Below, piece after piece: positions 2,636 through 15,619 of a stretch of DNA of 30,457 nt (positions are counted from its first letter, which is position 1; the number at the start of each line of letters is the position of its first letter). Position numbers and translations under genes: made by a program. The notes under the pieces are model-generated. The model was not told the origin of the DNA, made no database searches, and saw only the letters and a program-made list of their open reading frames with translations. The stretch is from a virus: positions 1 through 30,457 of IMG/VR virus record IMGVR_UViG_3300046534_000322. One strand, 5' to 3'.

Positions 2636-2680
2636 ATTATACCGTGTATCGGCAATTTATTAAATTCAATTTTGTTATAT
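2636..2680 (-). promoter_or_regulatory. Phage promoter of repeated class, copy E (ssb)
   Basis: On the minus strand a perfect TATAAT (2636-2641) lies 18 nt below TTGAATTTAA (2660-2669), a diverged form of the GTTATTTATT element of the other copies. An ATATAAC half-site lies just upstream (2674-2680), overlapping the stop of denV. The ssb start codon lies 43 nt downstream of the -10 box. It is the most diverged of five copies. Confidence 0.55.
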
Positions 2681-3082
2681 ATTATGCAATAATTGAATAT
2701 AATAGTCTTTTTTTACTTTTACTTTATTAAGAGTATAAAAAGTAGGCTTCTCAACTACTTTAGCTGATAGCCTGACTAGATTTGTTATTTTATCTTGTTT
2801 CGTAGGCTCCCAATCATCGTTCAATGATATGGGGTGAGGTTTATATAATTTTTTTGTGGGATTATACCCTCGAATAATTAATTCATCGTAGAGACGTTCA
2901 CAGCGATTAGCTAAATAAAGACCTTTGTCATAAAAGAACTTTACATGACCTTCGCCTAGCGTATACTTACCGTAGTCTAGCATACCTCTTGACAGTTTAC
3001 TAACACGAGTAATTTCACGGTACTCAATAAACAAGTGTTGGTCTGCTAGGTCTTCAACAGGTATGCAATTTATTCTAGTCAT
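2675..3082 (-). CDS. denV: Pyrimidine-dimer DNA glycosylase / AP lyase (T4 endonuclease V family)
   Basis: A 135-residue homologue of T4 endonuclease V, which starts base excision repair of UV-induced cyclobutane pyrimidine dimers. The N-terminus MTRIN, then LADQHLFIEYRE, places the nucleophile Thr2 and the catalytic Glu23, and also Arg22 and Arg26, at the same positions as in T4. GHVKFFYDK near residues 45-53 matches GHVTFFYDK of the family. The end differs: the T4 WYKYY aromatic segment is replaced by PTFYTLNKVKVKKDYY, so the DNA-contacting C-terminus has diverged. Length (138 in T4) is typical. It sits between two promoters of the repeated class, so it is transcribed as its own unit and into ssb. 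Confidence 0.95.
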   Translation of the reverse strand: MTRINCIPVEDLADQHLFIEYREITRVSKLSRGMLDYGKYTLGEGHVKFFYDKGLYLANRCERLYDELIIRGYNPTKKLYKPHPISLNDDWEPTKQDKITNLVRLSAKVVEKPTFYTLNKVKVKKDYYIQLLHNI

Positions 3083-3112
3083 TAACTTTTCCTTTGATTA
3101 AGTCGACTATTT

Positions 3113-3159
3113 ATTATAACAAGGTTTTGATGATTTAATAAATAACTAATTGATATAAC
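3113..3159 (-). promoter_or_regulatory. Phage promoter of repeated class, copy D (denV)
   Basis: The minus strand has TATAAT (3113-3118), an 18-nt spacer and GTTATTTATT (3137-3146), with a GTTATATC half-site upstream (3152-3159). The upstream dyad is reduced to one arm and is 8 nt closer than in copies A and B. The denV start codon lies 31 nt downstream of the -10 box. Confidence 0.7.
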
Positions 3160-3170
3160 GTTATTCTATT

Positions 3171-3488
3171 TTAATCTATCTCTTCACCGCACTCATCACA
3201 CTCTAGTCTGCTACTCTCACAGTTACTACAAGGAGGCATACTTGTAGCACTGCAATAGCAAGGCTCTTGTGTGAGTGCTATAGTACCTCCGCACTCACAC
3301 TCACCACCTTCTTCAAGGCTCCTTAGTTCTTGCTCAAATAAAACAGCGTAAACTACTCCGTTAGTAGCATCAACACTAACCATGTTGTTTACTACACTTC
3401 TAACAGTAGTAACAAAACCAGAGTATGGTATACCAGCAGGCATCGGACCGTCAAGAGGAACTACTTTGACTCTGTCTCCTCTGTTCAT
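3171..3488 (-). CDS. Small protein with KOW/SH3-like N-terminus and cysteine-rich zinc-binding C-terminus
   Basis: A 105-residue protein. Residues 1-58 (GDRVKVVPLDGP, YSGFVTTVRSVVNNMVSV) have the strand pattern of a KOW/SH3-like barrel. Residues 61-105 hold eight cysteines in CxC and CxxC pairs (CEC, CYC, CSNC, CDEC), which would suit one or two zinc sites. Such an arrangement suggests nucleic-acid or RNA-polymerase binding, but no named family was recognised. Its ATG overlaps the stop of the Dda-like helicase by 4 nt (ATGA), so the two are translationally coupled. Confidence 0.78.
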   Translation of the reverse strand: MNRGDRVKVVPLDGPMPAGIPYSGFVTTVRSVVNNMVSVDATNGVVYAVLFEQELRSLEEGGECECGGTIALTQEPCYCSATSMPPCSNCESSRLECDECGEEID

Positions 3489-4786
3489 GGTGTGTATACC
3501 TTGTGTGATGCGCGGCTTATGCCTACGTATGTTAATGTTAAGTATAAATCAAAGTTACGTTCTGCAGCTATAGCTAAATCGTCAGTATCTAGTATAACAG
3601 TATGGAACGTTGAACCTTGACTCTTGTGTACAGTCATAGCATGAACAAAGTCCATACATACAACACAGTCATCGAAACTAAGAAACTCTCTCCAAGCTTT
3701 AGACCGCTCTCTAGCTAACTTGTGAGTGTAGTTAACTTTAGCCCAAGCTACTGCTTTGTAGCCTCTAAACTCATCTTCTATAGCTTTGTTACTAGCTACA
3801 GCGGCTCTTTGAAGCTCTTCCCTGAGTCTTTTAAAACGATAGTGACCGAAGACATAAGCAAATACAAATTCAGCACCGTCAGTGTCTTGAAACAGACCGA
3901 ACCCACAATTTTCTGACTCTATAAGACCTTCAAGAGTTTTAAACTTACTACCTAAGCTCAAAGGGTCAGTATAGTGTAAGTCTATACAGTTAACATCTTC
4001 TACACTGTGTTTAAACACATAGTGATGCTGAGTAGTAGGACTAAATACATCGTCGTCATTTGCTGGGAACGCATAGCCTTGAATTTTGTAGTTCAAGTCT
4101 TCTACGCGTTTGTTAGTGAAAGCTAGATACACCTTGTCAGGCTCTCTAAACCTTACTTTGTCAATGTCGATGCCTCTTTCAAAGAAGCCCGGTATAGACT
4201 CTAGAGGCTCTGGCTGTGCGACTTTATCTATATAGCTAATTAGTTTCTTCAGAGGAATTTGCAAAGGGTTGTCGTTGCGGTACTGCTTAGTTAACTTCTT
4301 ATGGTACTTGCTACCTTCAGCTTTAAGAGTCTGTTTATCTCCAACAGGTGGCAGTTGGTGATGGTCACCGTACGCAACTAATTTAAGTATTGGCTCACCT
4401 GTGTACATAGGGTCTTGACATGCACGTATGTCCATAGTGTCTTTATCACCGACCATACTATACTCGTCTAAAAACATGACACGAGGCTTTTCATCAGGCT
4501 TACTAGTCTGCATAGATGAGCTAACTTCAGACATCTTAACAGCACTAGAGTTAACAGTAGGACGCTTACCTAAGAAACTGTGCAGAGTCTGTACACGAGC
4601 AAATGTAGGTAACTTAGCTCTAAGTATACCACAAGCTTTGTGAGTGTAAGCGCAAACAACGTAAGGTATTTCATTGTCAATACAGTACTGCACGTCTTTG
4701 CGCATGTCAGTAGTTTTACCTGTGCCAGCAGCACCAGTAACAAACATATCCCAAGCTTCTGGGTCCTCTAAGAATTGCTTAAACAT
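3485..4786 (-). CDS. SF1B DNA helicase (T4 Dda / RecD-like)
   Basis: A 433-residue ATP-dependent 5'-3' type DNA helicase. Motifs in order: Walker A GAAGTGKT (18-25), DEYS motif II (107-110), GDHHQLPP motif III (140-147), VHKSQGST (386-393, UvrD_C_2/RecD-type motif V) and YVGISRAS (420-427, motif VI). The length equals that of T4 Dda (439). It would remodel forks or help strand exchange and origin firing during phage replication. AGGA precedes the ATG, and the start overlaps the upstream 76-residue gene by 8 nt. It is in an operon with a GHKL ATPase upstream and a zinc-binding protein downstream. Confidence 0.93.
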   Translation of the reverse strand: MFKQFLEDPEAWDMFVTGAAGTGKTTDMRKDVQYCIDNEIPYVVCAYTHKACGILRAKLPTFARVQTLHSFLGKRPTVNSSAVKMSEVSSSMQTSKPDEKPRVMFLDEYSMVGDKDTMDIRACQDPMYTGEPILKLVAYGDHHQLPPVGDKQTLKAEGSKYHKKLTKQYRNDNPLQIPLKKLISYIDKVAQPEPLESIPGFFERGIDIDKVRFREPDKVYLAFTNKRVEDLNYKIQGYAFPANDDDVFSPTTQHHYVFKHSVEDVNCIDLHYTDPLSLGSKFKTLEGLIESENCGFGLFQDTDGAEFVFAYVFGHYRFKRLREELQRAAVASNKAIEDEFRGYKAVAWAKVNYTHKLARERSKAWREFLSFDDCVVCMDFVHAMTVHKSQGSTFHTVILDTDDLAIAAERNFDLYLTLTYVGISRASHKVYTP

Positions 4787-5009
4787 CTATTATTCCTCTT
4801 GGGAAGTACTTAAGTATTTCAGGGCTCATATCTTCGTTTAAATAAGTAAAGCAGAATTTAGCACCGAAGTATTCAAAAGCTAAATCTCTGCCATGAGCAT
4901 GGTCTTTGCACTTTATCGCAGCTACACAGTTCTTATCAAAAGTTTTACCATTAACAGAGTGAGCGTGTATCTGACCGAAAGTCACAAATACTGTATTATC
5001 AGAAGACAT
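4779..5009 (-). CDS. Small hypothetical phage protein
   Basis: A 76-residue protein with no recognised catalytic motif. It begins with a strand-rich segment (TVFVTFGQIHAHSVNGKTF) and ends with AFEYFGAKFCFTYLNE and LKYFPRGIIDV. The pattern (NGKTFDKNCVAAI, FEYFGAKFCF, KYFPRG) resembles small conserved proteins that recur in phage replication operons. The start overlaps the GHKL ATPase gene by 11 nt and the end overlaps the helicase start by 8 nt, so it is embedded in a tightly coupled operon. Confidence 0.78.
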   Translation of the reverse strand: MSSDNTVFVTFGQIHAHSVNGKTFDKNCVAAIKCKDHAHGRDLAFEYFGAKFCFTYLNEDMSPEILKYFPRGIIDV

Positions 5010-6015
5010 CAGCAGCTCTCCAACCTTTAGACCTGTGAATTAGTTTTTCGAAGTTGTTTTGTTCGTCACGACGCATAAAGCGCTTGTTGTCTACAGCGAA
5101 TGTAGTTAAGAAGTTAAAAGGAGTGTTTGGGTCAGGTGGAGTAGGTGTTGTGTCAATTCCTGCGCCTTTAAATACACCGTAAGCTGAATAACCGAATGAC
5201 AAACCGCCTACCTTCTGACCTGTTTTGACTATAGGAACATCTCCATAAGTGTATGTAAATATGTTCTTAATCTTTGTCTGCATTTTAGGAGTGATGTAGT
5301 ACTCTAGCAGGCTAACGTCTTTAGCTTCGTTAATTAGCATATCAAATACTTGTTTAGGGTCTCCATAGTTTCCGTGGCCTACAGCTAAAGCTGTTGAAAT
5401 ACCGTCAACCATGTTTCTATCGCGGTTTAGCTCTATCGCATCTGGAGCAAAGTTGTAAGAGTGTGTTAGTTCTTTGTCACGGCATACAAATAAGCCATTG
5501 ACGTAGATATCTCCACCTTCACCAACTACATCGAAGTGTTCTGGCTTGCCTAAGAAACTACCGAAAGGAGTAAGCTTCTTCTGTATCTCGCTCTTATAAG
5601 AGTCTAACAGGTCACACGTGAAAATAGTGTCGCTAGAAGAGTATTCTAACACTTCGAATACTAGACAGAATGTATCCTCTCTTGTTATTTCATTAGTTCT
5701 GAATTGGCCAGATATTTTGCTTTTGCCAGTAAATATGACAGGATTAGTTTCAAGTCTTGTCAGTATCATCATAGCTAGTTTAAGACCTTCACCGTACTTG
5801 CCTATAGAACCATCGCTTTTCTGGGATACACCTAGTGTAAAACAATTTAAAGGTATTTCTGTGTCAAAAGTTTGAACTACTATAGCTTGGTTAAAAATTT
5901 CATAGCTCGCTTCGCAGTCTAAGTCTAACGCGTTTTGTGCAACTTCTCTAAGTGCTTCTAAATAGCCCCAATCAGAGCAATATTCGGCTGACATATTAAA
6001 GTCTAGTATTTTCAT
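4999..6015 (-). CDS. GHKL (Bergerat-fold) ATPase
   Basis: A 338-residue protein with an N-terminal histidine-kinase/Hsp90-like ATPase domain. The N box is EALREVAQNALD (E24, N28) and the G2 lid is GSIGKYGEGLKL (G75, G77). The G1 box is degenerate: where DxGxG is expected I see TFDTEIPLNC, keeping Asp51 but losing the glycines. The rest has no recognisable kinase, topoisomerase or MutL part. Phage GHKL proteins of this type are common but of unknown role; T4 RIIA is one distant example with a GHKL domain. The gene overlaps the 55-residue gene upstream (ATGA) and the 76-residue gene downstream. ATPase fold likely; role unknown. Confidence 0.85.
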   Translation of the reverse strand: MKILDFNMSAEYCSDWGYLEALREVAQNALDLDCEASYEIFNQAIVVQTFDTEIPLNCFTLGVSQKSDGSIGKYGEGLKLAMMILTRLETNPVIFTGKSKISGQFRTNEITREDTFCLVFEVLEYSSSDTIFTCDLLDSYKSEIQKKLTPFGSFLGKPEHFDVVGEGGDIYVNGLFVCRDKELTHSYNFAPDAIELNRDRNMVDGISTALAVGHGNYGDPKQVFDMLINEAKDVSLLEYYITPKMQTKIKNIFTYTYGDVPIVKTGQKVGGLSFGYSAYGVFKGAGIDTTPTPPDPNTPFNFLTTFAVDNKRFMRRDEQNNFEKLIHRSKGWRAADVF

Positions 6016-6179
6016 GGTCTGTACCTATTGTAAAGTTCTAAGTGTTGTAAAGATAACGCAGACACTATTAGCATTTCAGAACATTCTTCTTTGCCTCTAA
6101 GCCACGCTTGGTGGTCGTCTGACATTTCATGGTACCAATCACAAGATTTAAGTCTTGCTTCATACTCGTCTAATTCCAT
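6012..6179 (-). CDS. Small acidic hypothetical protein (55 aa), first gene of GHKL-helicase operon
   Basis: A short open frame, MELDEYEARLKSC to LYNRYRP, with a good ribosome site (AAGGA, spacer about 6) before the ATG. Its stop overlaps the ATG of the GHKL ATPase by 4 nt. The segment DWYHEMSDDHQAWLRGKEE resembles short conserved phage proteins with a DWYxxxSDDHxxWxxG pattern, of unknown function. It is the first gene after promoter copy A. Coupling, codon pattern and promoter position make it very likely real. Confidence 0.8.
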   Translation of the reverse strand: MELDEYEARLKSCDWYHEMSDDHQAWLRGKEECSEMLIVSALSLQHLELYNRYRP

Positions 6180-6195
6180 AATATTCCTTAAAATA

Positions 6196-6224
6196 TATCT
6201 AGAATATTCATTATATTCTAGATA
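6196..6224. other. Perfect 12-bp inverted repeat over the -10 and leader
   Basis: TATCTAGAATAT and its exact complement flank a 5-nt loop (12+5+12 nt). It covers the TATAAT box (6210-6215) and the expected transcription start of promoter copy A, and lies 17 nt from the start codon of the 55-residue gene. As DNA it could be an operator; as RNA a leader hairpin. No T tract follows, so it is not an ordinary terminator. Confidence 0.65.
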
Positions 6225-6262
6225 CGTATTTTAATAAATAACAATTTGTTATATGATATAAC
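6210..6262 (-). promoter_or_regulatory. Phage promoter of repeated class, copy A (GHKL-helicase operon)
   Basis: The minus strand has TATAAT (6210-6215), a 17-nt spacer, GTTATTTATT (6233-6242) and a perfect dyad GTTATATCATATAAC (6248-6262) directly after the MazG-like gene stop. The start codon of the 55-residue gene lies 31 nt below the -10 box. This is the most complete of the five copies. Confidence 0.75.
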
Positions 6263-6780
6263 TAAATTTTGTCTGCTCGAGCTACAGCGCTTTCGTTACT
6301 ATACTTGAAGCCTTCATAACGCTTGCCCAGTTTTTCTGTATTCGCAGCTTTAGCTCCAGCTTCGTTTATAGATAACATAAGGTAAATACCACTCAGAGTC
6401 GCTCTAAACTTTGAAGCCTTAGAAGCTACAAGCTCTAAGTCCAAAGGCTTATTGTAAAACAGATGAGGCTTTATACTGCCGTACAGGTCAGCAGCTGCTA
6501 CTGCTAGCATTAATAATGAGCATTGATTAATATGTTCTACAACTAAATCTAACTCTAGCTCTTGAATTAAGCCTTCAAAGTAGAATTCTACATCACCAGA
6601 CTCTTCTAGTATGTTTTTATCGTCTACTATAATTGCATTTACGCCTTCAATTAGTTCACCTACTTCTTCCATTATGCAAGCTGACATGTGAATTAAGGCA
6701 CACTTTTTAGGTGTCATTTCTGCTAATATAGCTTCACCGGGTTTTGCTAGTGTTCTTACCATTTCTGCGTGATTAATCAT
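6262..6780 (-). CDS. MazG-like nucleotide pyrophosphohydrolase
   Basis: A 172-residue all-alpha protein. EEVGELIE (residues 38-45) and EESGDVEFY (59-67) form the ExxE...ExxD metal site of the MazG/dUTPase all-alpha NTP pyrophosphohydrolase superfamily. The C-terminal KLGKRYEGFKYSNESAVAR matches the RY-GFS-E-A-R end seen in phage MazG-like proteins. It would hydrolyse (d)NTPs, or (p)ppGpp-like alarmones as proposed for phage MazG, to NMP and pyrophosphate. GAAGGAAG precedes the ATG. It is the last gene before promoter copy A. Confidence 0.87.
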   Translation of the reverse strand: MINHAEMVRTLAKPGEAILAEMTPKKCALIHMSACIMEEVGELIEGVNAIIVDDKNILEESGDVEFYFEGLIQELELDLVVEHINQCSLLMLAVAAADLYGSIKPHLFYNKPLDLELVASKASKFRATLSGIYLMLSINEAGAKAANTEKLGKRYEGFKYSNESAVARADKI

Positions 6781-6805
6781 GATACTTCCTTCGTTGTTGA
6801 GAGCT

Positions 6806-7108
6806 TTATTGCTCTAGGTTTTCTAGTATGTCTTGAACTTGCTCTGCTGCGCTTAACAGCTCATTCCTTATTCTGTCTACTTCCTGTTCAACAAAAGCTG
6901 CATAGTATAACATCGCAAATGCTTTGTTAAAATACCATGGTTTTGATATGACAAAACATAAATCTTTATCATTTCCAGCCTCTTCAACAGCCTGCTTTTT
7001 TACTTCGTCACTAACACGAGGCAAGCTTTTCTGTAGAGCTTTCATCCTCACATCAGCTGCGGCTTTTGCTTTAACTAGTATCTTACCTTCTAAATCTTTT
7101 ATGTTCAT
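6806..7108 (-). CDS. Hypothetical helical protein
   Basis: A 100-residue, mostly helical protein rich in Ala, Lys and Glu (ILVKAKAAADVRMKALQKSL, ELLSAAEQVQDILENLEQ). No membrane segment or catalytic motif is visible. A GAGGAAG ribosome site precedes the ATG, which shares a base with the stop of the upstream gene. It lies between the primase operon and the MazG-like gene. Unrecognised. Confidence 0.75.
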   Translation of the reverse strand: MNIKDLEGKILVKAKAAADVRMKALQKSLPRVSDEVKKQAVEEAGNDKDLCFVISKPWYFNKAFAMLYYAAFVEQEVDRIRNELLSAAEQVQDILENLEQ

Positions 7109-7476
7109 TATTTTCTTCCTCTGTTAAGTTTAATATACTTTTTAACAAACACTATTACCGAGCCAATCCAACCTTTTGAGCAATAGTAATTTACAGGCTG
7201 ATTACAAATTACTTCTTCTTTGTCCCATACGTATCGCTTATTAACATCAACACTTACTCTCATGCCGCCTCCTAATTGTACATTGACCTTGCATTTTTCT
7301 GGGCCGAATTTAATAAGCCCATCAAATCCCAAGCCATGTAAAGTATCCATATCAACTAGATATTCATTATTTTTATACTCCCCTAAATCACGAGTAACTA
7401 TAAATGTCATTGTAGAGTTGTCTTGCCCCTTTGTTACGTCAAATAAAAATTTATTAGGTTTTATTGTGTATGTCAT
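7108..7476 (-). CDS. Hypothetical protein
   Basis: A 122-residue, beta-rich protein (TMTFIVTRDLGEY, CKVNVQLGGGMRVSV, KGWIGSVIVFVKKYIKL). Three cysteines are scattered and do not make a clear metal site. The hydrophobic C-terminal stretch GSVIVFVKKYIKL is too short for a sure membrane helix. AAGGAAGG precedes the ATG. It overlaps its upstream neighbour by 4 nt and its downstream neighbour by 1 nt, showing operon membership. Unrecognised. Confidence 0.72.
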   Translation of the reverse strand: MTYTIKPNKFLFDVTKGQDNSTMTFIVTRDLGEYKNNEYLVDMDTLHGLGFDGLIKFGPEKCKVNVQLGGGMRVSVDVNKRYVWDKEEVICNQPVNYYCSKGWIGSVIVFVKKYIKLNRGRK

Positions 7477-7757
7477 TGCTTACCTTCCTTTAGTCCTTTG
7501 GTTATACATTTAATCCGTCTTAGTATATTTAATGGGCTAGACTTTTGTTTCATGACTGTGTTTATAAAAATAAGCTTCCATTTATATCCATTAGTTATTT
7601 TTATAATACTCTTACCAAATAAATGCTTTAATATAATTTTACCTTTAAATCTGTATACTAAGACCAACCCATTAAAGGTAACTGAAGGTATTTTTTCACC
7701 TCTTATTCCTACTATCCATTCGGGGACATTATCCCCCCATTTATAAAATCTAATCAT
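7473..7757 (-). CDS. Small basic hypothetical protein
   Basis: I choose the ATG at 7757 (MIRFYKWGDN, 94 residues) because it follows the strong GGAGGGAGGAAG ribosome site; an ATG 27 nt earlier lacks one. The protein is Lys/Ile-rich and basic, with strands at the start (EWIVGIRGEK, GLVLVYRFKGKIIL) and a basic helix at the end (LNILRRIKCITKGLKEGK). It overlaps its upstream neighbour by 8 nt. The C-terminus could bind nucleic acid, but no family is recognised. Confidence 0.68.
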   Translation of the reverse strand: MIRFYKWGDNVPEWIVGIRGEKIPSVTFNGLVLVYRFKGKIILKHLFGKSIIKITNGYKWKLIFINTVMKQKSSPLNILRRIKCITKGLKEGKQ

Positions 7758-8064
7758 AACTTCCTCCCTCCAATTCTGTATCAATTACATGCAGCCTGTG
7801 TAACTCCTTATCAAGGGCGTTAAACTCCCTATCAATAGCTGCAATCTCTTCTTTGAGCTCTGCCACTTGCGCCTTCTCTAACTCAACAATGCGCTTAATG
7901 TCTGCTAGTGAGCGCATATCATCCTGTAAAGATAAATCACAAAGAGAACACCATTTACTTTTTTTTCTATTCCAATAGCTATTATTATCTGCATTTAAAT
8001 AATCGGTACCATCAATGTGAGTTGCCCCCTCTGGCGCATTATCTATAATTTCTTGGTTATTCAT
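7750..8064 (-). CDS. Hypothetical protein with C-terminal coiled coil
   Basis: The N-terminus (NNQEIIDNAPEGATHID) belongs to a pattern often seen in small phage proteins, APxGATH followed by Y and W residues (SYWNRKKSKWCSL). From about residue 45 the sequence is a long amphipathic helix or coiled coil (VELEKAQVAELKEEIAAIDR). I place the start at the third of three successive ATGs (8064), 7 nt after AGGAG. An ATG at 8100, overlapping the stop of the primase gene (TAATG), is an alternative that adds 12 residues. Confidence 0.75.
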   Translation of the reverse strand: MNNQEIIDNAPEGATHIDGTDYLNADNNSYWNRKKSKWCSLCDLSLQDDMRSLADIKRIVELEKAQVAELKEEIAAIDREFNALDKELHRLHVIDTELEGGSYD

Positions 8065-8099
8065 CATCATGCTCCTGTTGTATGAAATTATTGTGCTCA

Positions 8100-10295
8100 T
8101 TATTCATCTGCCTCAAATGGGTTTTCTTCAGGGAGTGTTATGTTGTATGACTTAACACCGTCTTTACTGCTCGGTCTAATTTGTATGCCGTGAGTCTTAA
8201 TAACTTTAGTTAGTGAACGTTGCTCTCCATTGTGGTCTGTCATTTCAGCGTATAGTAAGAATAAATCATCTAGTGTTACATGCCTGTTTGAGAATGCTCT
8301 TCCTACATCTGGGCATTCATAGTCATCACACATGTCAACTAGGTAATCAAACATACAGTGTTTAATACAAAATGCAATACGGCCAGCAGCGTATAAACTG
8401 TCAGCTATTAGATTAAGCTTATCTTCTGATTCGTGAGCTCTCATGTAGTCAGTCATGTTAAGTGCAGGAACTTCTGTAGCTAAGTAATATGCCCAGTCTT
8501 TACTCTCTGCCATTATTCTATCGTGAACATCACTCATACCGCCTGCTGCCTCAATCCACATGGCATCAGCTAATACATTAGGAGTATTAATTAGTGTGAC
8601 ACGTCTATCGCCATCCTCAATCATCAGAGGGTTCTTATTTGCAGTCATTATGAATGTCACATGGTGATAATAGTCAAATCCATCTGTGCGCATCTCACGT
8701 ACCCTAATCTTAGGCTTTCCGGTATAAGCTTTGATTTTGCCTAGCGCTTCATCTTTATCACGCTGATTAGTAAGCTGATTACCGTACTCATCTAACTGTA
8801 CAAAGTAACTATCTAACATGTAGCCGTTGTATACTTCTAAGAACTCTTTTACAGTAGGCCTGCCCATGCTACCCATCATCTTCTCTAACAGAGACACAAA
8901 CAAATCTTTACCTGAGCCGTGCTTACCTATGAAGTATAGTATAATAGGTGAGTACTTAAACGTTGTTAGCTTTGTCTTAATAAAAGAAATAACGTAGTTA
9001 CGCATTACTGGGTCAGGTATGAGAGTTTCCATGTATTTTATAGTAAGCAGCGGTCTACTGTACTTAGCTTCGTATATCTCAGGGTCTCTGAGTATAGCTA
9101 ATTCAGGAGTCTGTATGAATGTGTTTAAGTCTCTAGCTGTTGGGTCAACTCCTTCATGAAATCCGAATGTGTCTGCTGGGTCTGACTTAACATTAAGCAT
9201 CGGTACACTGCACTTAACTTCTTTCTTAGACGGGTGAGTTACAGCTACAGCTTCTATGAATGCCATTAGCTCACTGTCTCTAGCAAAGCTTTTATACTCT
9301 TGATTTATTTCATCGACTACATAGTACATATTACGATGGTCGTCAAAGCCTATATCTAATGCTGCCTGCCTTTTAGACTGAATAATGAGTCTGTGTGCGT
9401 CCCAGTTGTCCTCATATTTCCATATAGGTACACCATCTATAGATGCATGCCTTGTTAACATCGGGTCCAGTATAGTCTTCTCAAGACGTCCAGATTGCAT
9501 AGGCTTACTAAACATCTCATTAATAGTTACCATAGCCTCCATGTACATAGTCTCGTCTATAGAGATGTCTGCTCCTAGTATCGCACTAACTTTAGACATG
9601 TACTCTGAGCCACGACCCATAGGCACATCATTAGGGTGCAAGTGACCTTTAGCAACATACTGAGGTACACTTCTGAAGTCTTTAGGCGTTATTATCTTAA
9701 ACAGCCCCGGCATGTACTTATTTCTTTTTAGTAACTCTGTAACTAATGGATTTAAACAAGACGCAGTGAATATATTAGTTACTGCTGATTCAGCTGGCTT
9801 CTGTTTTAAACTAAGCTGTAGTAACAGTGCTTTGACTGCTGGAGGCAATGAAGGAGGCTGAGATACTTCTGCTAACGGGACTTTAGTTTTGTTGCCAGCG
9901 GTAGCTAAATATATGAAGCCTCTATTACTATAGAAGTCTAGTGCAAAGTTGTTGTCTTGTATACTAAACGATGAAGGTAATTCGTCATCATAAGCATATA
10001 TCAGTGTGCCTGCTTTGTAGCCCTTGCCTTTAGACAAGAACACCATTTTGTTGTCTACATCAAGAGCTCTGAAAATATCCCAAGTGTTAGTATTATCACA
10101 GTCAATAGCAATAATGCCTGAGCAACGTCCGGTAATCGCCCCACCGATTGACGTAGCATTTGTGTTCGTGACTTTCTCATACTTATCTCTCCAATTCTTT
10201 TCGAATATAGGTAAAGTCTTCTGTCCGCCTTCTATTCTTTCTAGCTTGCCTTTAAGCGGGACTGTGTTCCATCCTAAGTCTATATATTTTTGCAT
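8100..10295 (-). CDS. Primase-polymerase / SF3 (D5-like) helicase
   Basis: A 731-residue bifunctional replication protein. Residues 1-150 look like a PrimPol (AEP) domain: GWNTVPLKGK, IAIDCDN with D65 and D67, and a later acidic residue in LDFYSNRGFIYLA. I see no histidine anywhere in the first 200 residues, although AEP motif II is normally sxH. Residues about 430-600 are a DUF5906/D5-type SF3 helicase: Walker A FIGKHGSGKD near 455-463, Walker B QLDEYGN near 500 and a sensor segment IMTANKNP near 552. The start overlaps the HTH gene by 16 nt. It would unwind and prime phage DNA. Confidence 0.9.
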   Translation of the reverse strand: MQKYIDLGWNTVPLKGKLERIEGGQKTLPIFEKNWRDKYEKVTNTNATSIGGAITGRCSGIIAIDCDNTNTWDIFRALDVDNKMVFLSKGKGYKAGTLIYAYDDELPSSFSIQDNNFALDFYSNRGFIYLATAGNKTKVPLAEVSQPPSLPPAVKALLLQLSLKQKPAESAVTNIFTASCLNPLVTELLKRNKYMPGLFKIITPKDFRSVPQYVAKGHLHPNDVPMGRGSEYMSKVSAILGADISIDETMYMEAMVTINEMFSKPMQSGRLEKTILDPMLTRHASIDGVPIWKYEDNWDAHRLIIQSKRQAALDIGFDDHRNMYYVVDEINQEYKSFARDSELMAFIEAVAVTHPSKKEVKCSVPMLNVKSDPADTFGFHEGVDPTARDLNTFIQTPELAILRDPEIYEAKYSRPLLTIKYMETLIPDPVMRNYVISFIKTKLTTFKYSPIILYFIGKHGSGKDLFVSLLEKMMGSMGRPTVKEFLEVYNGYMLDSYFVQLDEYGNQLTNQRDKDEALGKIKAYTGKPKIRVREMRTDGFDYYHHVTFIMTANKNPLMIEDGDRRVTLINTPNVLADAMWIEAAGGMSDVHDRIMAESKDWAYYLATEVPALNMTDYMRAHESEDKLNLIADSLYAAGRIAFCIKHCMFDYLVDMCDDYECPDVGRAFSNRHVTLDDLFLLYAEMTDHNGEQRSLTKVIKTHGIQIRPSSKDGVKSYNITLPEENPFEADE

Positions 10296-10795
10296 TCAGA
10301 CATCTTCTTATAAACTGTGCTCATACTAACATTAAGCTTCTTAGCTATCTGATGAGCATCTAAGTGATGTAGCTTCCTAACGTCTTCTACAGTTATCAGA
10401 GTACGCTTCTTTCTTTCTTTGCGTAGATTAAACTGTCTTGCTACTTGAGACACTCTAGCCTGAGTGACGCCTAGGACAACTGCAATGTATTCTTGAGACG
10501 AATTAGGGTTAGCATTAAGCATTGCAGATATATCGTCTGTGAGACTCTTACGGGGCTCAGTCCAGCCTTTAGAATATAACACCTTGTTATTCTCAATATT
10601 AGTCAGGTAGAAGTAGTACTTAGGGTCTTCGGAGACTAAGGCTTCTTCGTACAGGCCTTTAGTCATTTTATACATAGGTAGCTTGCTTCTTTTAAGCCAC
10701 CTGCGATACTCTTGATGGTTTATGTTAGCCTCTAAAAGCAGGTCATCTATAGTACCTTGCTTCTGCATGGAATGCAGCAAGTAAATTACTTCCAT
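10280..10795 (-). CDS. DNA-binding protein with two helix-turn-helix motifs
   Basis: A 171-residue basic protein. One HTH is at about residues 100-123 (SSQEYIAVVLGVTQARVSQV) and a second at about 146-165 (DAHQIAKKLNVSMSTVYKKM), the latter resembling Hin/resolvase-type HTH. The N-terminus (DLLLEANINHQEYRRWLKRS) could be a third helical DNA-binding part. It is co-transcribed with, and overlaps, the primase-helicase gene, so it may load that enzyme at an origin or regulate the operon. A ribosome site (GAGG) precedes the ATG, and a terminator lies upstream of the gene. Confidence 0.82.
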   Translation of the reverse strand: MEVIYLLHSMQKQGTIDDLLLEANINHQEYRRWLKRSKLPMYKMTKGLYEEALVSEDPKYYFYLTNIENNKVLYSKGWTEPRKSLTDDISAMLNANPNSSQEYIAVVLGVTQARVSQVARQFNLRKERKKRTLITVEDVRKLHHLDAHQIAKKLNVSMSTVYKKMSECKNI

Positions 10796-10830
10796 TGCAC
10801 ATACCTCAGTTATTAAATAATGTTAATAGC

Positions 10831-10858
10831 AAAAAAAGCCACCATGAGGTGACCTTTT
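10831..10858 (-). terminator. Rho-independent terminator after the 159-residue early gene
   Basis: On the minus strand GGTCACC pairs with GGTGGC plus T across the loop TCAT, followed by seven Ts. Flanking A and T runs extend the stem to about 11 pairs. It ends transcription of the 10877-11356 gene. The A tract on the other side would let it work in both directions. Confidence 0.85.
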
Positions 10859-10876
10859 AAGTGTATGAGGCTTGTA

Positions 10877-11356
10877 TTACAGACCGCGAGCTTCAGAGTC
10901 AGCTAAACATTCTTCTAGTGTGGCGAACCCGTAGCCATCGTCTAAAGGAGATATCTTAGCACGCTCAAGTGCAATAGCTTCTTGCTCAGTAGCGATGTCA
11001 GCAACTTCTATCTCACCGGCGGTTAAACGAGTAAGCAAACCAGCTTCAGCTTCTTTAGCAGCTTTATACTGACCATTCCACTTTGCTGTACCGTCTTTAC
11101 TCATCGAGCTTAAGCCTGATGCAGATGAAGTCTTAGCTCCAAAATCTACAACACGAGGGTCGAAGAACAACTTGTGATAAGCACAACGAACGGCAACAAC
11201 TACGTCGTCTACAATATGGAAAGCACTTACACCACCGCCGCCACCTGTTTTGGCTTCAGCTAACTTAATTACTTGCTCGATTACAGAACTTACTTTTTTA
11301 TCTACGTTAGCTTCTAGTAAGTCAACGATGGCAGAGAACATTTTTTTAATAGCCAC
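10877..11356 (-). CDS. Conserved early protein, paralogue of the 14755-15168 product
   Basis: A 159-residue protein that starts at GTG with GGAG about 8 nt before it. It shares a pattern with the 137-residue protein at 14755-15168: VxLLEANxxKKVS, a YHK, then SSAxGLxSMxKxGxxxW and QxxAxKxAExxLL. It has a glycine run (GGGGG near residue 38) and a longer acidic C-terminus than its paralogue. It forms a single-gene unit with its own promoter and a strong terminator, which suggests high and separately controlled expression. Function unknown. Confidence 0.85.
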   Translation of the reverse strand: MAIKKMFSAIVDLLEANVDKKVSSVIEQVIKLAEAKTGGGGGVSAFHIVDDVVVAVRCAYHKLFFDPRVVDFGAKTSSASGLSSMSKDGTAKWNGQYKAAKEAEAGLLTRLTAGEIEVADIATEQEAIALERAKISPLDDGYGFATLEECLADSEARGL

Positions 11357-11406
11357 GATAGGCTCCTTTTTTAGGTTGGTGGGATAATTCCCGATTTGTG
11401 ATATAC

Positions 11407-11435
11407 ATCTTATACTGATTTATATCGTACGTAAA
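11407..11435 (-). promoter_or_regulatory. Probable sigma70-type promoter of the 159-residue early gene
   Basis: The minus strand has TTTACG (11430-11435), a 17-nt spacer and TAAGAT (11407-11412). The sequence around the -10 (AGTATAAGATGTAT) closely matches the region before the paralogous gene at 15168 (AGTTAAGATGTAT). The -35 lies in a small dyad TAAACAGTTTA. It does not carry the GTTATTTATT element. Confidence 0.45.
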
Positions 11436-11470
11436 CTGTTTATTTAGAATAAAATCGTATAATTATTCGA

Positions 11471-11929
11471 TTAAGACATCAAGCTAAAATTATAGAAGTC
11501 ATGTATTGTCCTAGCTTCAAGCAGTCTTATCTTATTAAGGTCAGAAACACAGTGAATGTTAGAAGCACACTCTATAGTGTTATCAGGCATTAGGCGCCAG
11601 TAAGGTTTATCACCTTTATCCATCCATACTTCGTAGTCATTATTACTTATGTACCTGTACTTAGTATTATCATCATCGATGTGAGTGACTAAACTAATGT
11701 CATTAACTTCTTGATACGCTATTACAGGCTCTACTATACTATTTCCTCTTCCCCATCCGTACCTTTCGTAGTAAGATTCAGGAGTTACACCTGTGATAGA
11801 TAACCTGTCTGCACTAAAGTCTCTAGACAGTACAGACTGTTTGTGTAATGCATCTAGTAGTATCTGCTCTAATGTGTCAGTACTCATGTCTTCATCTGGA
11901 GTACTTATTGTAATTGTAAATTCTGCCAT
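11471..11929 (-). CDS. Hypothetical protein
   Basis: A 152-residue soluble, acidic protein with no recognised family. It begins with a strand and helix (EFTITISTPDEDMSTDTLEQ) and is rich in aromatic residues (SYYERYGWGRGN, YEVWMDKGDKPYW). GGAG precedes the ATG. It is the last gene of the leftward run that starts at promoter copy B. No clear terminator follows; only a weak AATCG/CGATT stem lies before the next promoter. Confidence 0.75.
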   Translation of the reverse strand: MAEFTITISTPDEDMSTDTLEQILLDALHKQSVLSRDFSADRLSITGVTPESYYERYGWGRGNSIVEPVIAYQEVNDISLVTHIDDDNTKYRYISNNDYEVWMDKGDKPYWRLMPDNTIECASNIHCVSDLNKIRLLEARTIHDFYNFSLMS

Positions 11930-11942
11930 TTCTTGCTCCTAG

Positions 11943-12257
11943 TTAGTTTATTAAGTCATTTATAGAGAAAGAGAAGTCGATGAACAGCTCAGTCTTAAAG
12001 ACTTCTTTGTCGTTGTTTGTAGGGAACCCTGTAAGCCACTGTGAATGATGACTGATACCAAACTTTATACGCTTACTGTATCTGTACTCTATACTGATTC
12101 TAGCTGATAGAGGGTCATCTACCAATCTTCCGTTATAGTAAGTCTTGTCCTCGTGAAATATCCAGCCAGCACCTACAACTACGACTGTCTTGTCTTTCCA
12201 ATCATCAGCAAATGAAGATGCTGATAGTAATAGTGTTAATAGTAATAAATACTTCAT
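11943..12257 (-). CDS. Predicted secreted protein with signal peptide
   Basis: A 104-residue protein with a clear Sec signal: MKYLLLLTLLLSASSFA, with cleavage likely after FA-D near residue 17. The mature part has alternating strands (ARISIEYRYSKRIKFGI, KTELFIDFSFSI) like a piece of an outer-membrane beta-barrel or a small periplasmic protein. It is too short for a full barrel of eight strands. Early phage proteins exported to the envelope can block superinfection, but here that is only an idea. Its ATG overlaps the previous stop by 4 nt. Confidence 0.78.
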   Translation of the reverse strand: MKYLLLLTLLLSASSFADDWKDKTVVVVGAGWIFHEDKTYYNGRLVDDPLSARISIEYRYSKRIKFGISHHSQWLTGFPTNNDKEVFKTELFIDFSFSINDLIN

Positions 12258-12454
12258 GAGTCATCTTCCAGCTTATTTATTTCTTCCCGTAACTCCTGCA
12301 GTTTGCCAGTTATGCAACTATCATAGTAGCCGTCTATCCAGTTATATACACTCTCTATGCCCTTAATCTGCCCCTCTATGTATATTATAGTTAGTTTTTT
12401 CTCAGCCTCTGTATGTATCTGTACACCTTTATAAGTCTTGCATTTTACACTCAT
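12254..12454 (-). CDS. Small hypothetical protein
   Basis: A 66-residue protein that I start at MSVKCKTYKG (12454), which has GGAG about 8 nt before it and avoids overlap with the upstream gene; an earlier ATG at 12520 lies inside that gene. It has two strands (GVQIHTEAEKKLTIIYIEG) and an acidic C-terminal helix (GKLQELREEINKLEDDS). Its stop overlaps the signal-peptide gene. Unrecognised. Confidence 0.7.
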   Translation of the reverse strand: MSVKCKTYKGVQIHTEAEKKLTIIYIEGQIKGIESVYNWIDGYYDSCITGKLQELREEINKLEDDS

Positions 12455-12471
12455 TTCTTGCTCTCCTTTAG

Positions 12472-12681
12472 TTATCCGAAACTCTTTCTGGCGTCTGCCT
12501 CGTTGTTGAAAAGTGTGCAACCGAATATGCTGTTGTCTTTAGCAACGTATAGTTCTCCTAAGCCATTAGAAATTGAAGCTAATTTACAGGCGTGCTCGAA
12601 TGTATCAGCGTAATAGTCACCTAAGTACTTAGCTCTTTGTTTAGGCTTAAAGCCTTCCATCCACACGTTATGCTTTGGCAT
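12472..12681 (-). CDS. Small hypothetical protein
   Basis: A 69-residue protein. The pattern YADTFEHACKLA, then GELYVAKDNSIFGCTLF and NNEADARKSFG looks like a compact alpha/beta domain. No catalytic motif is recognised. It overlaps its upstream neighbour by 14 nt, and a ribosome site lies within that gene (AGGGAG). It belongs to the small-gene early operon. Confidence 0.7.
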   Translation of the reverse strand: MPKHNVWMEGFKPKQRAKYLGDYYADTFEHACKLASISNGLGELYVAKDNSIFGCTLFNNEADARKSFG

Positions 12682-12931
12682 TGTTATTCTCCCTTAATAT
12701 GCTTAAGTAAATGTTTGTATGCAAGTAAGTCTTCTTTCTTACTATAGATTTAGGTATCCAGATAGTTAAGCCTTCAGTAGTAATCTTGTAAGCTTTATCA
12801 GTCTTATCTACAACTACAAAGTCTACATGCGTATGGTGGAACAGCGGGTCACTAACGAAGTCATCTGAGTACATACTATCTATGTCTTCAGTTTCATAAG
12901 CGTCCAAGCCATGATTGAATGTGTCACTCAT
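12668..12931 (-). CDS. Small hypothetical protein
   Basis: An 87-residue protein with an acidic N-terminal third (YETEDIDSMYSDDF) and a compact beta part, FVVVDKTDKAYKI then GLTIWIPKSIVRK. The last pattern (modify strand, then W-P-K-S) is frequent in short phage and plasmid proteins of unknown role. It overlaps the CGYxACVC-family gene by 8 nt. Function unknown. Confidence 0.72.
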   Translation of the reverse strand: MSDTFNHGLDAYETEDIDSMYSDDFVSDPLFHHTHVDFVVVDKTDKAYKITTEGLTIWIPKSIVRKKTYLHTNIYLSILRENNNAKA

Positions 12932-13376
12932 TAGTTAACACCTTTACTAGCATTCTGATGTATCTTGCAGCTAACTTGGGTGAGGACTCGCTGTTAAGGT
13001 GAGGGTGCTCTAACTGATTAGGTGTTAGTAAGTTAGAACTATGTGCGAATAACTTACGGTCGCAACTGCTTGTTACAGACTTTGCAAGATAAGAGCTACC
13101 TGTATGTACTATGCAAGCTTCTCGTATATCTTCGTCTATATAGTTAGCTAAGTATATTCCTTTTAGAGTACCTAAAGACAAGGCTGTATCTGATTTGGGA
13201 AATAACTTTAAATCTCGTGATACAGCTTGATGGCTACATACACAAGCCACATACCCGCAAGTATTAATTGAACTACCTCTATAGTATGTGAACATGTTGA
13301 AACTGTCTTCATCAACTTTGCTCATTGTCTTAGCTAAAGCTAACAGCTGACTTATAAATAGCGGAGATTCTTTCAT
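12924..13376 (-). CDS. CGYxACVC-family early protein, copy 1
   Basis: A 150-residue protein clearly related to the product of 13958-14407. Shared patterns are LFISQLxALA, CGYxACVC near residue 40, FPxxD, YIDEDxRxAC, LAKSVT, then LTxxQLxHPHL and a C-terminal SSPxxAAxYIRMLxxVLT. Three invariant Cys in the first half and the HPH could bind metal, but no known fold is recognised. It overlaps the upstream gene by 4 nt and the downstream gene by 8 nt. Confidence 0.82.
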   Translation of the reverse strand: MKESPLFISQLLALAKTMSKVDEDSFNMFTYYRGSSINTCGYVACVCSHQAVSRDLKLFPKSDTALSLGTLKGIYLANYIDEDIREACIVHTGSSYLAKSVTSSCDRKLFAHSSNLLTPNQLEHPHLNSESSPKLAARYIRMLVKVLTNE

Positions 13377-13639
13377 AGTGTTATTCCTGTCCCTATGTAT
13401 TTGTTAATAGGCTTTAGGGCTACCTCAATAGCTCTGAGTACGTTTCTTGAGCGGATGTGGTCGATACTAAGGATAGCCTCATTACGTTTAATCTCGTTGA
13501 CTAGAGAGACTAATTGAGCTACATCGAACTTATTAACTAATACTACTCTTGAAGAGCGAGACTTTAGCTCTAGTAAGTGGCAAAGTTCATCACTCAGGTC
13601 AACCTCGTGAGTCGTGGTCTTGACTACTGTATATATCAT
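13373..13639 (-). CDS. Small hypothetical protein
   Basis: An 88-residue protein with a strand start (MIYTVVKTTTHEVDLS) and helical remainder (FDVAQLVSLVNEIKR, VLRAIEVALKPINKY). No motif is recognised. Its start codon follows copy 1 of the repeated hairpin/leader element, with AGGA as ribosome site. It overlaps the CGYxACVC-family gene downstream by 4 nt. Confidence 0.72.
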   Translation of the reverse strand: MIYTVVKTTTHEVDLSDELCHLLELKSRSSRVVLVNKFDVAQLVSLVNEIKRNEAILSIDHIRSRNVLRAIEVALKPINKYIGTGITL

Positions 13640-13644
13640 GGTAC

Positions 13645-13699
13645 TATTCCTAGTTTAAGGGTGTTGTCAATAGGACCTCGTGAAGCCCTATTAAGAATC
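13645..13699 (-). repeat. Repeated hairpin/leader element, copy 1
   Basis: A 55-bp element just before the 13373-13639 gene. On the minus strand AATAGGGCTT pairs with AGGTCCTATT across a CACG loop (hairpin 13669-13692, with G-T pairs). TTGACA follows, then TTAAACTAGGAATA, which carries the ribosome site. It is nearly identical to copy 3 (37 nt identical in the hairpin half). Confidence 0.85.
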
Positions 13700-13701
13700 G
13701 C

Positions 13702-13857
13702 CTAATCATCTTCTACGCGTTTTTTAATGAGCTCATCTAAGAGCGTCTGGATGGTCCCAGTCTGATTCTCGAGTTCTTCTATAGCATTATCCATATCTTC
13801 GTCTTCGATGAGCTCACAGATGTGCTCAAGCTCCTCAATTAAATCTCGTATACTCAT
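13702..13857 (-). CDS. Very acidic small protein (51 aa)
   Basis: A short frame from MSIRDLIEELEHI to KKRVEDD, with AGGAG 6 nt before the ATG. It is strongly acidic and almost wholly helical, with heptad-like leucines and isoleucines (DLIEELEHICELIEDED, TLLDELIKKRVEDD), so it may form a coiled coil or mimic DNA charge. It is the first gene after promoter copy B and is followed by hairpin element copy 1. Function unknown; existence likely from ribosome site and promoter spacing. Confidence 0.72.
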   Translation of the reverse strand: MSIRDLIEELEHICELIEDEDMDNAIEELENQTGTIQTLLDELIKKRVEDD

Positions 13858-13883
13858 TATATTCTCCTAGTGAATTCATACCC

Positions 13884-13935
13884 ATTATATACGGATATGA
13901 TATTTAATAAATAACGATTAGGTATATGATATAAC
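13884..13935 (-). promoter_or_regulatory. Phage promoter of repeated class, copy B
   Basis: The minus strand has TATAAT (13884-13889), a 16-nt spacer, GTTATTTATT (13906-13915) and a near-perfect dyad GTTATATCATATACC (13921-13935). The 51-residue acidic gene starts 27 nt below the -10. It would drive the small-gene operon down to 11471. Confidence 0.75.
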
Positions 13936-13957
13936 TAATCATTATATATAAGTAGTG

Positions 13958-14407
13958 TTAAACTGTTAATACTCTTATAAGCATTCTGATGTAACTTGCA
14001 GCGTGCTCAGGTGAAGACTCAGTAGTTAGATGAGGATGTTGTAACTGCTCATCTGTAAGATACTCAGACGCTTTCTTCTTACGTGTTTCCGCACCGACCA
14101 TAGTTACACTCTTTGCTAAAGAGCTGTAACCTGTAGCTGTGTGGCACGCTGCTCGTAAGTCTTCATCTATGTATCCAGCTACATTAGGTATAATAAAACT
14201 CATCGTCGGTGATTTAAGCTTCAATGAATCAGCTATAGGAAAGAACTCCAGTCTACCTGACAATGCTTGCTCTCCACATACACAAGCTGTGTATCCGCAC
14301 TTATTCAAGAAAGTGCTATAATAATAGCTCATACTAAAGTTAATAGCTTTAGTTTCTTCTAGTGTAGTAGCTAATGCTTCTAGCTGACTTATAAATAATT
14401 TCTTCAT
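13958..14407 (-). CDS. CGYxACVC-family early protein, copy 2
   Basis: A 149-residue paralogue of the 12924-13376 product, sharing LFISQLxALA, YYxxxxxxxCGYxACVC, YIDEDxRxAC, LAKSVT, QLxHPHL and the C-terminal YIRML. The variable middle (residues 60-80) and the segment after LAKSVT differ most. The start follows hairpin element copy 2 with TAGGAA as ribosome site, so expression differs from copy 1. No known family is recognised. Confidence 0.82.
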   Translation of the reverse strand: MKKLFISQLEALATTLEETKAINFSMSYYYSTFLNKCGYTACVCGEQALSGRLEFFPIADSLKLKSPTMSFIIPNVAGYIDEDLRAACHTATGYSSLAKSVTMVGAETRKKKASEYLTDEQLQHPHLTTESSPEHAASYIRMLIRVLTV

Positions 14408-14411
14408 TGCT

Positions 14412-14454
14412 TATTCCTAGTTTAATGAGGTTGTCAATAGAGCCTCGTGAAGCT
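14412..14454 (-). repeat. Repeated hairpin/leader element, copy 2
   Basis: A shorter, diverged copy before the 13958-14407 gene. The stem AGCTT/AGGCT keeps the CACG loop but has different paired bases from copies 1 and 3, so structure looks conserved rather than sequence. TTGACA and TTAAACTAGGAATA follow as in the others. It overlaps the stop of the upstream gene by 2 nt. Confidence 0.75.
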
Positions 14455-14692
14455 AAATGTCGTTATCATACTCATACTTAACGATGTCTATCTCATCGTA
14501 TAAGTCTTGGCCAAATGCTGCGATGACTTCAGCCTTAGTTATAGACTCATCCTCATAGGCTTCAGAACACGCGTTGTACTTCAATTGGTCCATGTATTCA
14601 TCAGCAGTAGGCTTAGACGGTATCCAATTTCTGTCGTCCTTAAGCTCAAACTCTGCAATTTCAGCTTGTAGTAATGCTTCGCATTTAGTCAT
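14453..14692 (-). CDS. Small acidic hypothetical protein
   Basis: A 79-residue acidic protein (MTKCEALLQAEIAEFELKDD, ending DEIDIVKYEYDNDI), mostly helical with no recognised motif. It starts directly after hairpin element copy 3 with AGGA as ribosome site, and its stop runs into copy 2. It is therefore framed by two copies of the element. Confidence 0.72.
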   Translation of the reverse strand: MTKCEALLQAEIAEFELKDDRNWIPSKPTADEYMDQLKYNACSEAYEDESITKAEVIAAFGQDLYDEIDIVKYEYDNDI

Positions 14693-14697
14693 GGTAT

Positions 14698-14752
14698 TAT
14701 TCCTAGTTTAATGGGGTTGTCAATAGGACCTCGTGAAGCCCTATTAAGAATC
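14698..14752 (-). repeat. Repeated hairpin/leader element, copy 3
   Basis: A 55-bp copy between the 14755-15168 and 14453-14692 genes; the hairpin is at 14722-14745. It is almost identical to copy 1, including GATTCTTAATAGGG and TTGACAAC. The -35-like TTGACA is 16 nt from AATAAT, but that would start transcription at about the ATG. A leader or processing role seems more likely than a simple promoter. Confidence 0.85.
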
Positions 14753-14754
14753 AA

Positions 14755-15168
14755 CTAAACTATTGGTACGATGGCATTCGCTGCATTATTGATAGCCTCT
14801 TGAAGCGCTGGGAGGTCTTTGATACTTGTTGAACCATGAGCTAAGGATGCCAATAGAGCGGTCTCAGCAGCCTTCTTAGCGCGTTGTTGCTTAGTCCAAT
14901 GGGATACACCGACTTTGCACATCGAAGCTAATCCAGTCGCACTCGAGGCCTTCTTCCCATATTCGTGAGTGGATACTTCTTCCCATTGCTTGTGGTAGTA
15001 GCAATAGACTGAGGTGACATTACCTTCGCTGTCCTTAATGAAATTCTTGGAATTCTGCTTAGTGGTAACTAATTCAAGAATCTGAGGGAGCATCGTTGAT
15101 ACCTTCTTGTTTTTGTTAGCTTCAAGAAGAGCGACTATTTCTGCGTACTGGGTTTTGATGTTTGACAT
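14755..15168 (-). CDS. Conserved early protein, paralogue of the 10877-11356 product
   Basis: A 137-residue protein, the first gene of the whole leftward arm. Shared with its paralogue: VxLLEANxxKKVS, YCYYHKQW, KKASSATGLASMCKVG, HWTKQQRAKKAAE and a C-terminal QEA. The basic W-x-KQQRAKKAAE helix could contact nucleic acid or RNA polymerase. AAAAGG precedes the ATG. It sits under promoter copy C, where its paralogue has a simple sigma70-like promoter. No family name is known to me. Confidence 0.85.
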   Translation of the reverse strand: MSNIKTQYAEIVALLEANKNKKVSTMLPQILELVTTKQNSKNFIKDSEGNVTSVYCYYHKQWEEVSTHEYGKKASSATGLASMCKVGVSHWTKQQRAKKAAETALLASLAHGSTSIKDLPALQEAINNAANAIVPIV

Positions 15169-15197
15169 GATGTTTTCCTTTTGGTTAGCGTGAATAC

Positions 15198-15252
15198 ATC
15201 TTAACTGCTTGTGACTTATTTAATAAATAACAAATAATTATACTATATAACT
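15198..15252 (-). promoter_or_regulatory. Phage promoter of repeated class, copy C
   Basis: The minus strand has TAAGAT (15198-15203) as -10, an 18-nt spacer, GTTATTTATT (15222-15231) and a degenerate dyad around 15237-15251 (GTTATATAGTATAAT). The gene at 15168 starts 30 nt below the -10. It lies at the edge of the structured non-coding region. Confidence 0.65.
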
Positions 15253-15483
15253 AACTGATATATACTAGCGTTAGCTAATTGTGGTACGCACGTGTACGCT
15301 CGCATAATAAATGGTGAATTATACTAGTAAGCGCTGAGTGAGCTCTGGTCGTGTTTAGTAGTCTCGGATAGGTGTTACTATTAGTTAGATGATTGGAGCT
15401 GAAATCACTTTTGAGAAATATTGAACTACTCGTGTAGTATAACTTAAGCTTATAACGCAGTTTAACACTCATAACGCTGTTCT

Positions 15484-15585: not shown

Positions 15586-15619
15586 TAAATAATATAATAA
15601 TAACTACTAATATTAGCTA

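Follow-up and report, generated by a model that had tools for sequence, protein, structure and literature searches.

A 30,457-nucleotide (nt) stretch of viral DNA, IMG/VR record IMGVR_UViG_3300046534_000322 at positions 1 to 30,457 (hereafter the window), carries a repeated element in front of several leftward genes, among them genes for a phrog_10459 protein, a HATPase, and a pyrimidine-dimer glycosylase-like protein. The element, analyzed here as a putative promoter signal, consists of an upstream dyad, a conserved box over the -35 region, and a -10 box. The 30.5-kb record is a fragment of a Kafunavirus-like podovirus with the DNA polymerase gene truncated at the left end; the genomes of named relatives comprise 40.6–42.8 kb, so that about a quarter of the genome falls outside the window. 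Assignment to this clade is based on shared primase and phrog_10459 proteins and on a split early/late gene order. The window primase is 44–56% identical to the primases of relatives over at least 97% of the length (12 phage records), and phrog_10459 genes were found in the same 12 records. Primase relatives are Vibrio phage VPMS1, the Edwardsiella phages KF-1 and ETP-1, Dickeya phage Amaethon, Pseudoalteromonas phage PH1, and two metagenomic podoviruses; known hosts of the clade include Edwardsiella, Dickeya, Vibrio, and Pseudoalteromonas. For comparison, 67 loci were collected via phrog_10459 and 46 via the primase, the viral primase relatives being found only with an alignment as query, while a single primase sequence gave none. 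A DNA near-match search among phages with the window returned a 34-nt match only, and no published transcription scheme was found for this podovirus clade.

Four sites on the minus strand, designated by the position of their -10 boxes (3113, 6210, 13884, and 15198), have the exact 13-mer GTTATTTATTAAA in common. The predicted promoter of phrog_10459a (gene 14755–15168, minus strand), identified by sequence and matrix score, spans 15198–15254 and comprises the dyad TTAGTTATATAGTATAAT (15254–15232), the box GTTATTTATTAAAT (15231–15218), and the -10 box TAAGAT (15203–15198); the same element is found at the orthologue in the related contig L018. A 51-amino-acid open reading frame (ORF; 13702–13857) would be served by the predicted promoter at 13884–13938 (dyad 13938–13916, box 13915–13902, -10 box TATAAT 13889–13884), and a 55-amino-acid ORF (6012–6179) together with the overlapping HATPase gene (4999–6015) by that at 6210–6265 (dyad 6265–6243, box 6242–6229, -10 box TATAAT 6215–6210). 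The fourth predicted promoter, at 3113–3160, has a dyad half-site only, followed by the box GTTATTTATTAAAT (3146–3133) and TATAAT (3118–3113), and precedes the pyrimidine-dimer glycosylase-like gene (2675–3082).

The 14th base of the box is T at three sites and A at 6210. In the order 3113, 6210, 13884, and 15198, the gap between GTTATTTATT and the -10 box measures 18, 17, 16, and 18 nt, i.e., 12–14 nt after the 14-nt box, and the leaders from the -10 box to the start codon measure 30, 30, 26, and 29 nt and terminate in ordinary ribosome-binding sites. The dyads, with arms of 6–11 base pairs (bp), a 3-nt center, and a position near -53, are perfect at 6210 (GTTATA-TCA-TATAAC) and show one mismatch each at 13884 and 15198. 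The distance from AGTTAT of the dyad to GTTAT of the box is 20 nt at three of the four window sites and recurs in both L018 sites. The window copies are alike in dyad and box only; their spacers and flanks differ. At 6210, the -10 box sits within a perfect 12-bp inverted repeat, TATCTAGAATAT-AATGA-ATATTCTAGATA (6200–6230), and a near-consensus promoter, TTAACA-N17-TATAAT (11 of 12 positions), lies just upstream of the 13884 site, at 13969–13941.

It had originally been predicted that the box stands in place of a -35. A conserved element does cover the -35 region, but a degenerate -35 persists within it, i.e., TTTATT in the window and TTTACT, TTTAAC, or TTTCAT in relatives. Since the frame of the relatives puts TTTACT at -35 with a 17-nt spacer, we read TTTATT in the window as a -35 that is weakened and sits within a conserved word of greater length, and the box thus appears not simply to replace the -35 but to embed it.

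Chance does not account for the box. In the window (both strands, Markov orders 1–3), GTTATTTATTAAA was observed four times versus approximately 0.005 expected, and GTTATTTATT four times versus 0.16–0.21 expected in the window. All four sites fall in non-coding DNA, which makes up 6.8% of the window, and the three sites combining a perfect box with a perfect -10 box are intergenic and on the minus strand. A motif as frequent within genes as between them, which the original prediction had named as evidence against itself, was therefore not what we found. The loose dyad pattern alone was not enriched in the window, so the dyad carries weight for us only in combination with the box and the evidence from relatives. 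Furthermore, a fifth site with the same layout had been proposed at 2636–2680 (minus strand) as the promoter of the SSB gene (1937–2593). TATAAT (2641–2636) and a 42-nt leader are indeed present there, but the box is out of register, the best in-register match to GTTATTTATT being 6 of 10, and the TTTATTAAAT found at this position sits on the opposite strand. We therefore rejected 2636 as a member and retained the other four, which have the exact GTTATTTATTAAA.

A pattern derived from the window only, built before any relative was known to have the element, gave 34 matches in 2.9 million viral contigs, and the full layout including the dyad was present in a single contig, L018, where it occurs twice. 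A dyad-plus-box pattern again identified L018 as the sole fitting contig. L018 is a member of the clade, and its second copy directly precedes its phrog_10459 gene, like the 15198 site; dyad and box are common to the window and L018, the spacer is not. The two L018 copies are nearly identical to each other over approximately 80 nt. L005, L012, and most other matches of the window-only scan were rejected as chance matches in unrelated phages. The exact motif was absent from VPMS1, PH1, KF-1, ETP-1, Amaethon, MW202665, and MW202744; for PH1 and MW202665, it took matrices made from relatives to uncover degenerate forms. Matrix scans of relatives revealed such a degenerate form, ATAAC...TTCC...GTTATTTAnnAAAT followed by TATAAT with fixed spacing, in about twelve further phages of the clade. 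The series includes GTTATTTACTAAAT, GTTATTTAATAAAT, GTTATTTAACAAAT, GTTATTTCATAAAT, and similar words, mostly 13–14 nt before TATAAT or a close variant, and most of these sites have ATTCC upstream at one fixed distance and often ATAAC approximately 20 nt further up.

With a matrix built on the four boxes of the window, 1.46 Mb of relatives yielded 16 intergenic and two genic matches, as compared with a mean of 5.8 and a maximum of 9 intergenic matches for twenty column-shuffled matrices. Among 26 whole records, GTTATTTNNNAAAT N12-15 NATAAT had 11 matches in six records (backward control: 0), and TTCC N5 RTTATTT had 11 matches in seven records (control: 4); these two patterns describe rather than prove the element, as they were derived partly from the same sites. 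Covarying dyad arms are striking at three sites (L127, L057, and L056). A hairpin in RNA or a cruciform was nevertheless rejected as their explanation, because 19 sites did not exceed shuffles at that center, a z-value of 3.1 being reached one position further, where the window dyads center.

The element is restricted to this clade. A 38-nt pattern, ATAAC...TTCC...GTTATTT, matched five viral contigs, all of which belong to the clade. In 84,980 prokaryote genomes (species), the same pattern, which is of the TTCC type and not the window-type dyad, matched seven unrelated contigs (a Lokiarchaeon, Nitratifractor, Clostridia, Flavobacteriaceae, Pelistega, Alkalihalobacillus, and Pedobacter), with no plausible host and no gammaproteobacterium among them. 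In the ATAAC...TTCC...GTTATTT form, the element is thus not a host regulon element. The earlier proposal of a distinct, phage-specific promoter class agrees with these results, as the layout is kept among relatives whose primases are only approximately 44–57% identical and did not turn up in the host genomes searched.

The main conserved target is phrog_10459a, the gene that opens the leftward region, which the element directly precedes in the window and L018; in L051, L056, L080, and L070 it lies 0.3–0.5 kb away, separated from the gene by a small ORF or by other DNA, and in L052 and L055 the element is present but the -10 box is poor. Further predicted targets are SSB (L130, L124, PH1, and L042), thymidylate synthase ThyX (L127 and L160, followed by NTP-pyrophosphohydrolase and dCMP deaminase genes), HATPase (L127, and the window via the 55-amino-acid ORF), the paralogue phrog_10459b (L085), and the pyrimidine-dimer glycosylase (window). 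The contig of L127 and L052 carries three elements, which precede phrog_10459a, HATPase, and thymidylate synthase. Regarding the DNA upstream of phrog_10459 in other relatives, L055 (2903–3215) contains four spaced copies of CATA(A/G)C-AAATAGCATAAGCATATTCCAAA, three of which have GTATTGTAC and not GTTATTT at the -35 position. The leader of phrog_10459, as first early gene, in L054, L067, L068, L074, L087, L090, L106, L108, L110, L116, and others contains the word TTCTTTAACAATTT, which is absent from the window. It resembles boxA, the signal for antitermination in ribosomal RNA operons, is often followed by strong hairpins, and could mediate Nus-dependent antitermination of the early region.

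We compared the sites with known activator-dependent promoters. The Pm promoter of phage Mu has a 16-bp Mor dyad (5-bp arms, 6-bp spacer) that is centered at -43.5 and replaces the -35 (PMC4390567). As in Pm, we see a recognizable -10 box without a proper -35, a dyad suited to a phage activator next to polymerase with host sigma-70, and AT-rich DNA nearby; however, the dyads here are longer, lie near -53, and leave a separate box over the -35, and no Mor-family protein was found in eight records. The MotA box of T4 middle promoters has a TGCTT core, is centered at -30, 12 ± 1 bp upstream of the -10 box, and has no dyad (PMC2988021). Common to both systems are a phage element in the -35 region combined with a good host -10 box (here TATAAT at three sites and TAAGAT at 15198), many promoters, and DNA-metabolism targets. 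The T4-middle-like logic of the original prediction is borne out insofar as the predicted targets are mostly DNA-metabolism genes, but the element is GTTATTTAnnAAAT, which is unrelated in sequence, none of the four sites has an in-register TGCTT core, and a relationship to MotA is not supported. Lambda CII-activated promoters have a poor -35 that is flanked or overlapped by the activator sites, as proposed here, and CII recognizes TTGC direct repeats, which sets it apart from the dyads described here. We claim membership in neither the Mu Pm nor the T4 middle class, since neither the box sequence nor the position of the dyad agrees with theirs and the activator families are different. The sites nonetheless have the layout that defines activator-dependent sigma-70 promoters, i.e., a poor -35, an adjoining conserved site, and register with the -10 box; judged by sequence, their anatomy (fair -10, degenerate -35 in a conserved word, paired site at about -65 to -36) is that of this class.

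We therefore favor, with a probability of just under 60%, the reading that the sites are promoters of the host sigma-70 type, belonging to one phage clade, in which the -35 is degenerate and is adjoined by the binding site of an activator that the phage itself probably encodes. The near-consensus -10 box would be retained, while the degenerate -35, which reads TTTATT in the window and either TTTACT or TTTAAC in relatives, would lie inside GTTATTTAnnAAAT at about -40 to -27, with a two-fold-symmetric or paired half-site, centered near -53, directly upstream. Early on, the phage would make a DNA-binding activator that occupies this upstream site and GTTAT at -40 and contacts RNA polymerase held at -10; replication and repair genes would thereby be switched on jointly with the first leftward gene. 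Transcription from the sites, activation rather than repression, the phage origin of the activator, its binding, and the timing are what we infer from this arrangement.

Several observations weigh against this interpretation. Promoter activity is itself deduced from sequence, and with an element ahead of the first early gene, the activator would have to be synthesized from elsewhere beforehand. The dyad is incomplete at 3113 and has one sequence in the window type and another in the TTCC type, KF-1 and many further relatives lack the element, and no candidate protein follows its distribution. At looser matrix thresholds, there was no excess over shuffled matrices, so only strong matrix matches are trusted. 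Two doubts are the strongest: the AT-rich upstream DNA might function as an UP element, and the conserved element might serve as an operator. In the former case, the sites would be constitutive host promoters in which a good -10 box and an UP element contacted by the alpha subunit offset the weak -35 with no activator involved. The upstream DNA is very AT-rich and placed where an UP element would be, UP elements are mostly A and T tracts (PMC4390567), and the -35 variants TTTACT and TTTATT retain part of TTGACA. An UP element leaves unexplained, however, both the exact GTTATTT and TTCC repeated at fixed distances in phages otherwise different in sequence and the absence of the element from other promoters of the same genome, which makes this explanation unlikely.

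The dyads and half-sites are typical of operators and would fit binding by a phage repressor, or a dual role in which one promoter is closed while another is opened; the same holds for the tandem promoter at 13884, whose start the dyad would cover, and for the inverted repeat enclosing the -10 box at 6210. Yet the tandem promoter exists at one site only, and the conserved part spans the -35 in register with the -10 box, as an activator site would, so that we regard an operator as improbable. Control by a host regulator was considered for the LysR-type activator CysB, whose promoters have convergent half-sites just upstream of the -35 (PMC11329422), as do the sites described here, and because CTTATTCC is present upstream of E. 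coli cysK and cysP. Nothing further supports CysB: the consensus is weak, CTTATTCC alone is shared, and a host regulon contrasts with an element whose pattern matched no gammaproteobacterial genome among the 84,980 species and whose viral matches are confined to this clade; host control is therefore very improbable. The near identity of the two L018 copies might point to copies of a promoter cassette that is mobile or was duplicated recently and has no regulatory role. As the window copies share only dyad and box and the register is kept in distant phages, we give this reading hardly any credence.

If the sites are activator-dependent promoters, the acting protein could be the tandem helix-turn-helix (HTH) protein (10280–10795, minus strand), a phrog_10459 protein, or a regulator outside the window, and we give no candidate more than about one chance in three. 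The tandem HTH protein, already proposed as regulator, remains a candidate only. Its orthologues in L160, L127, L056, and L129 are almost alike in their two HTH motifs, and of the four phages, L160, L127, and L056 carry the TTCC type, whereas L129 does not; L130 has the element but a different HTH protein. A structure model of the tandem HTH protein gave no significant fold match. For phrog_10459, the model was confident (predicted local distance difference test, pLDDT, 91.5), no match in the PDB reached E < 1, and the best (VIA Z 5.2) is a coiled coil, with a score that common arrangements also reach. Viral matches of phrog_10459 outside its own family were weak and included many HNH-type endonucleases. 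This family without recognised fold or domain has paralogues in the genomes and is the most frequent target, and phrog_10459 itself being the activator is an unlikely proposal. The ribbon-helix-helix-like 51-amino-acid protein (18017–18172, minus strand), located by the terminase small subunit and lacking a Pfam match, had been named as a candidate regulator as well. We disfavor it, since it occurs clade-wide and its putative DNA-contact strand FTFSTK is nearly invariant, also in phages without the element. Relatives encode a small XRE/CII-like HTH protein that would fall in the part of the genome outside the window, and one relative has one weak CII-like HTH below the cut-off. Searches for Mor (PF08765), sigma, MotA, AsiA, and phage RNA polymerase gave no match in eight records, with controls working for Mor and sigma only. 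For the Mor/C family PF08765, these records included full-length relatives and the control was positive in one genome; for MotA and AsiA, there was no working positive control and the window is a fragment.

The surroundings of the sites contain further repeats. phrog_10459b (10877–11356, minus strand), the paralogue of phrog_10459a, has TTTACG-N17-TAAGAT without the box in its upstream region, and two phrog_19396 paralogues of unknown function (12924–13376 and 13958–14407) adjoin the duplicated phrog_10459 genes. Three near-identical intergenic elements, AATAGGGCTTCACGAGGTCCTATTGACAACCCCATTAAACTAGGAATAATACC, at 13640–13701, 14408–14452, and 14693–14754 form a hairpin after a stop codon, and their end directly abuts the next ATG. 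Between the terminase and the early genes, four 45-nt repeats (15611–15822, plus strand) contain GTTCTTAGAAC palindromes, three of them with TTAG(T/C)TAT(A/G), the half-site of the promoter dyad; the repeats are possibly an origin or an enhancer-like array. A second recurring promoter type, TGTGTACAAG/A followed after approximately 16 nt by TATTAT or TATAAT, has a window copy at 18224–18196 (minus strand) before a terminase-side gene. Outside the window it occurs at L038, L040, and L041; in KF-1, Amaethon, and VPMS1 it stands ahead of SSB or of another gene.

A signal shared before DNA-replication genes of the little-studied relatives of KF-1 suggests joint activation of these genes by an unknown viral protein. 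As a clade-specific promoter signal, it provides a testable regulon and a route to its regulator in cultured phages such as PH1. Should phrog_10459 itself prove to be the activator, it would represent a new type of RNA-polymerase-directed phage activator that forms an autoregulatory loop and whose site diverges between lineages. More generally, if the favored interpretation is true, these podoviruses would add to the lytic phages that cover the -35 and thereby redirect a host polymerase left unmodified.

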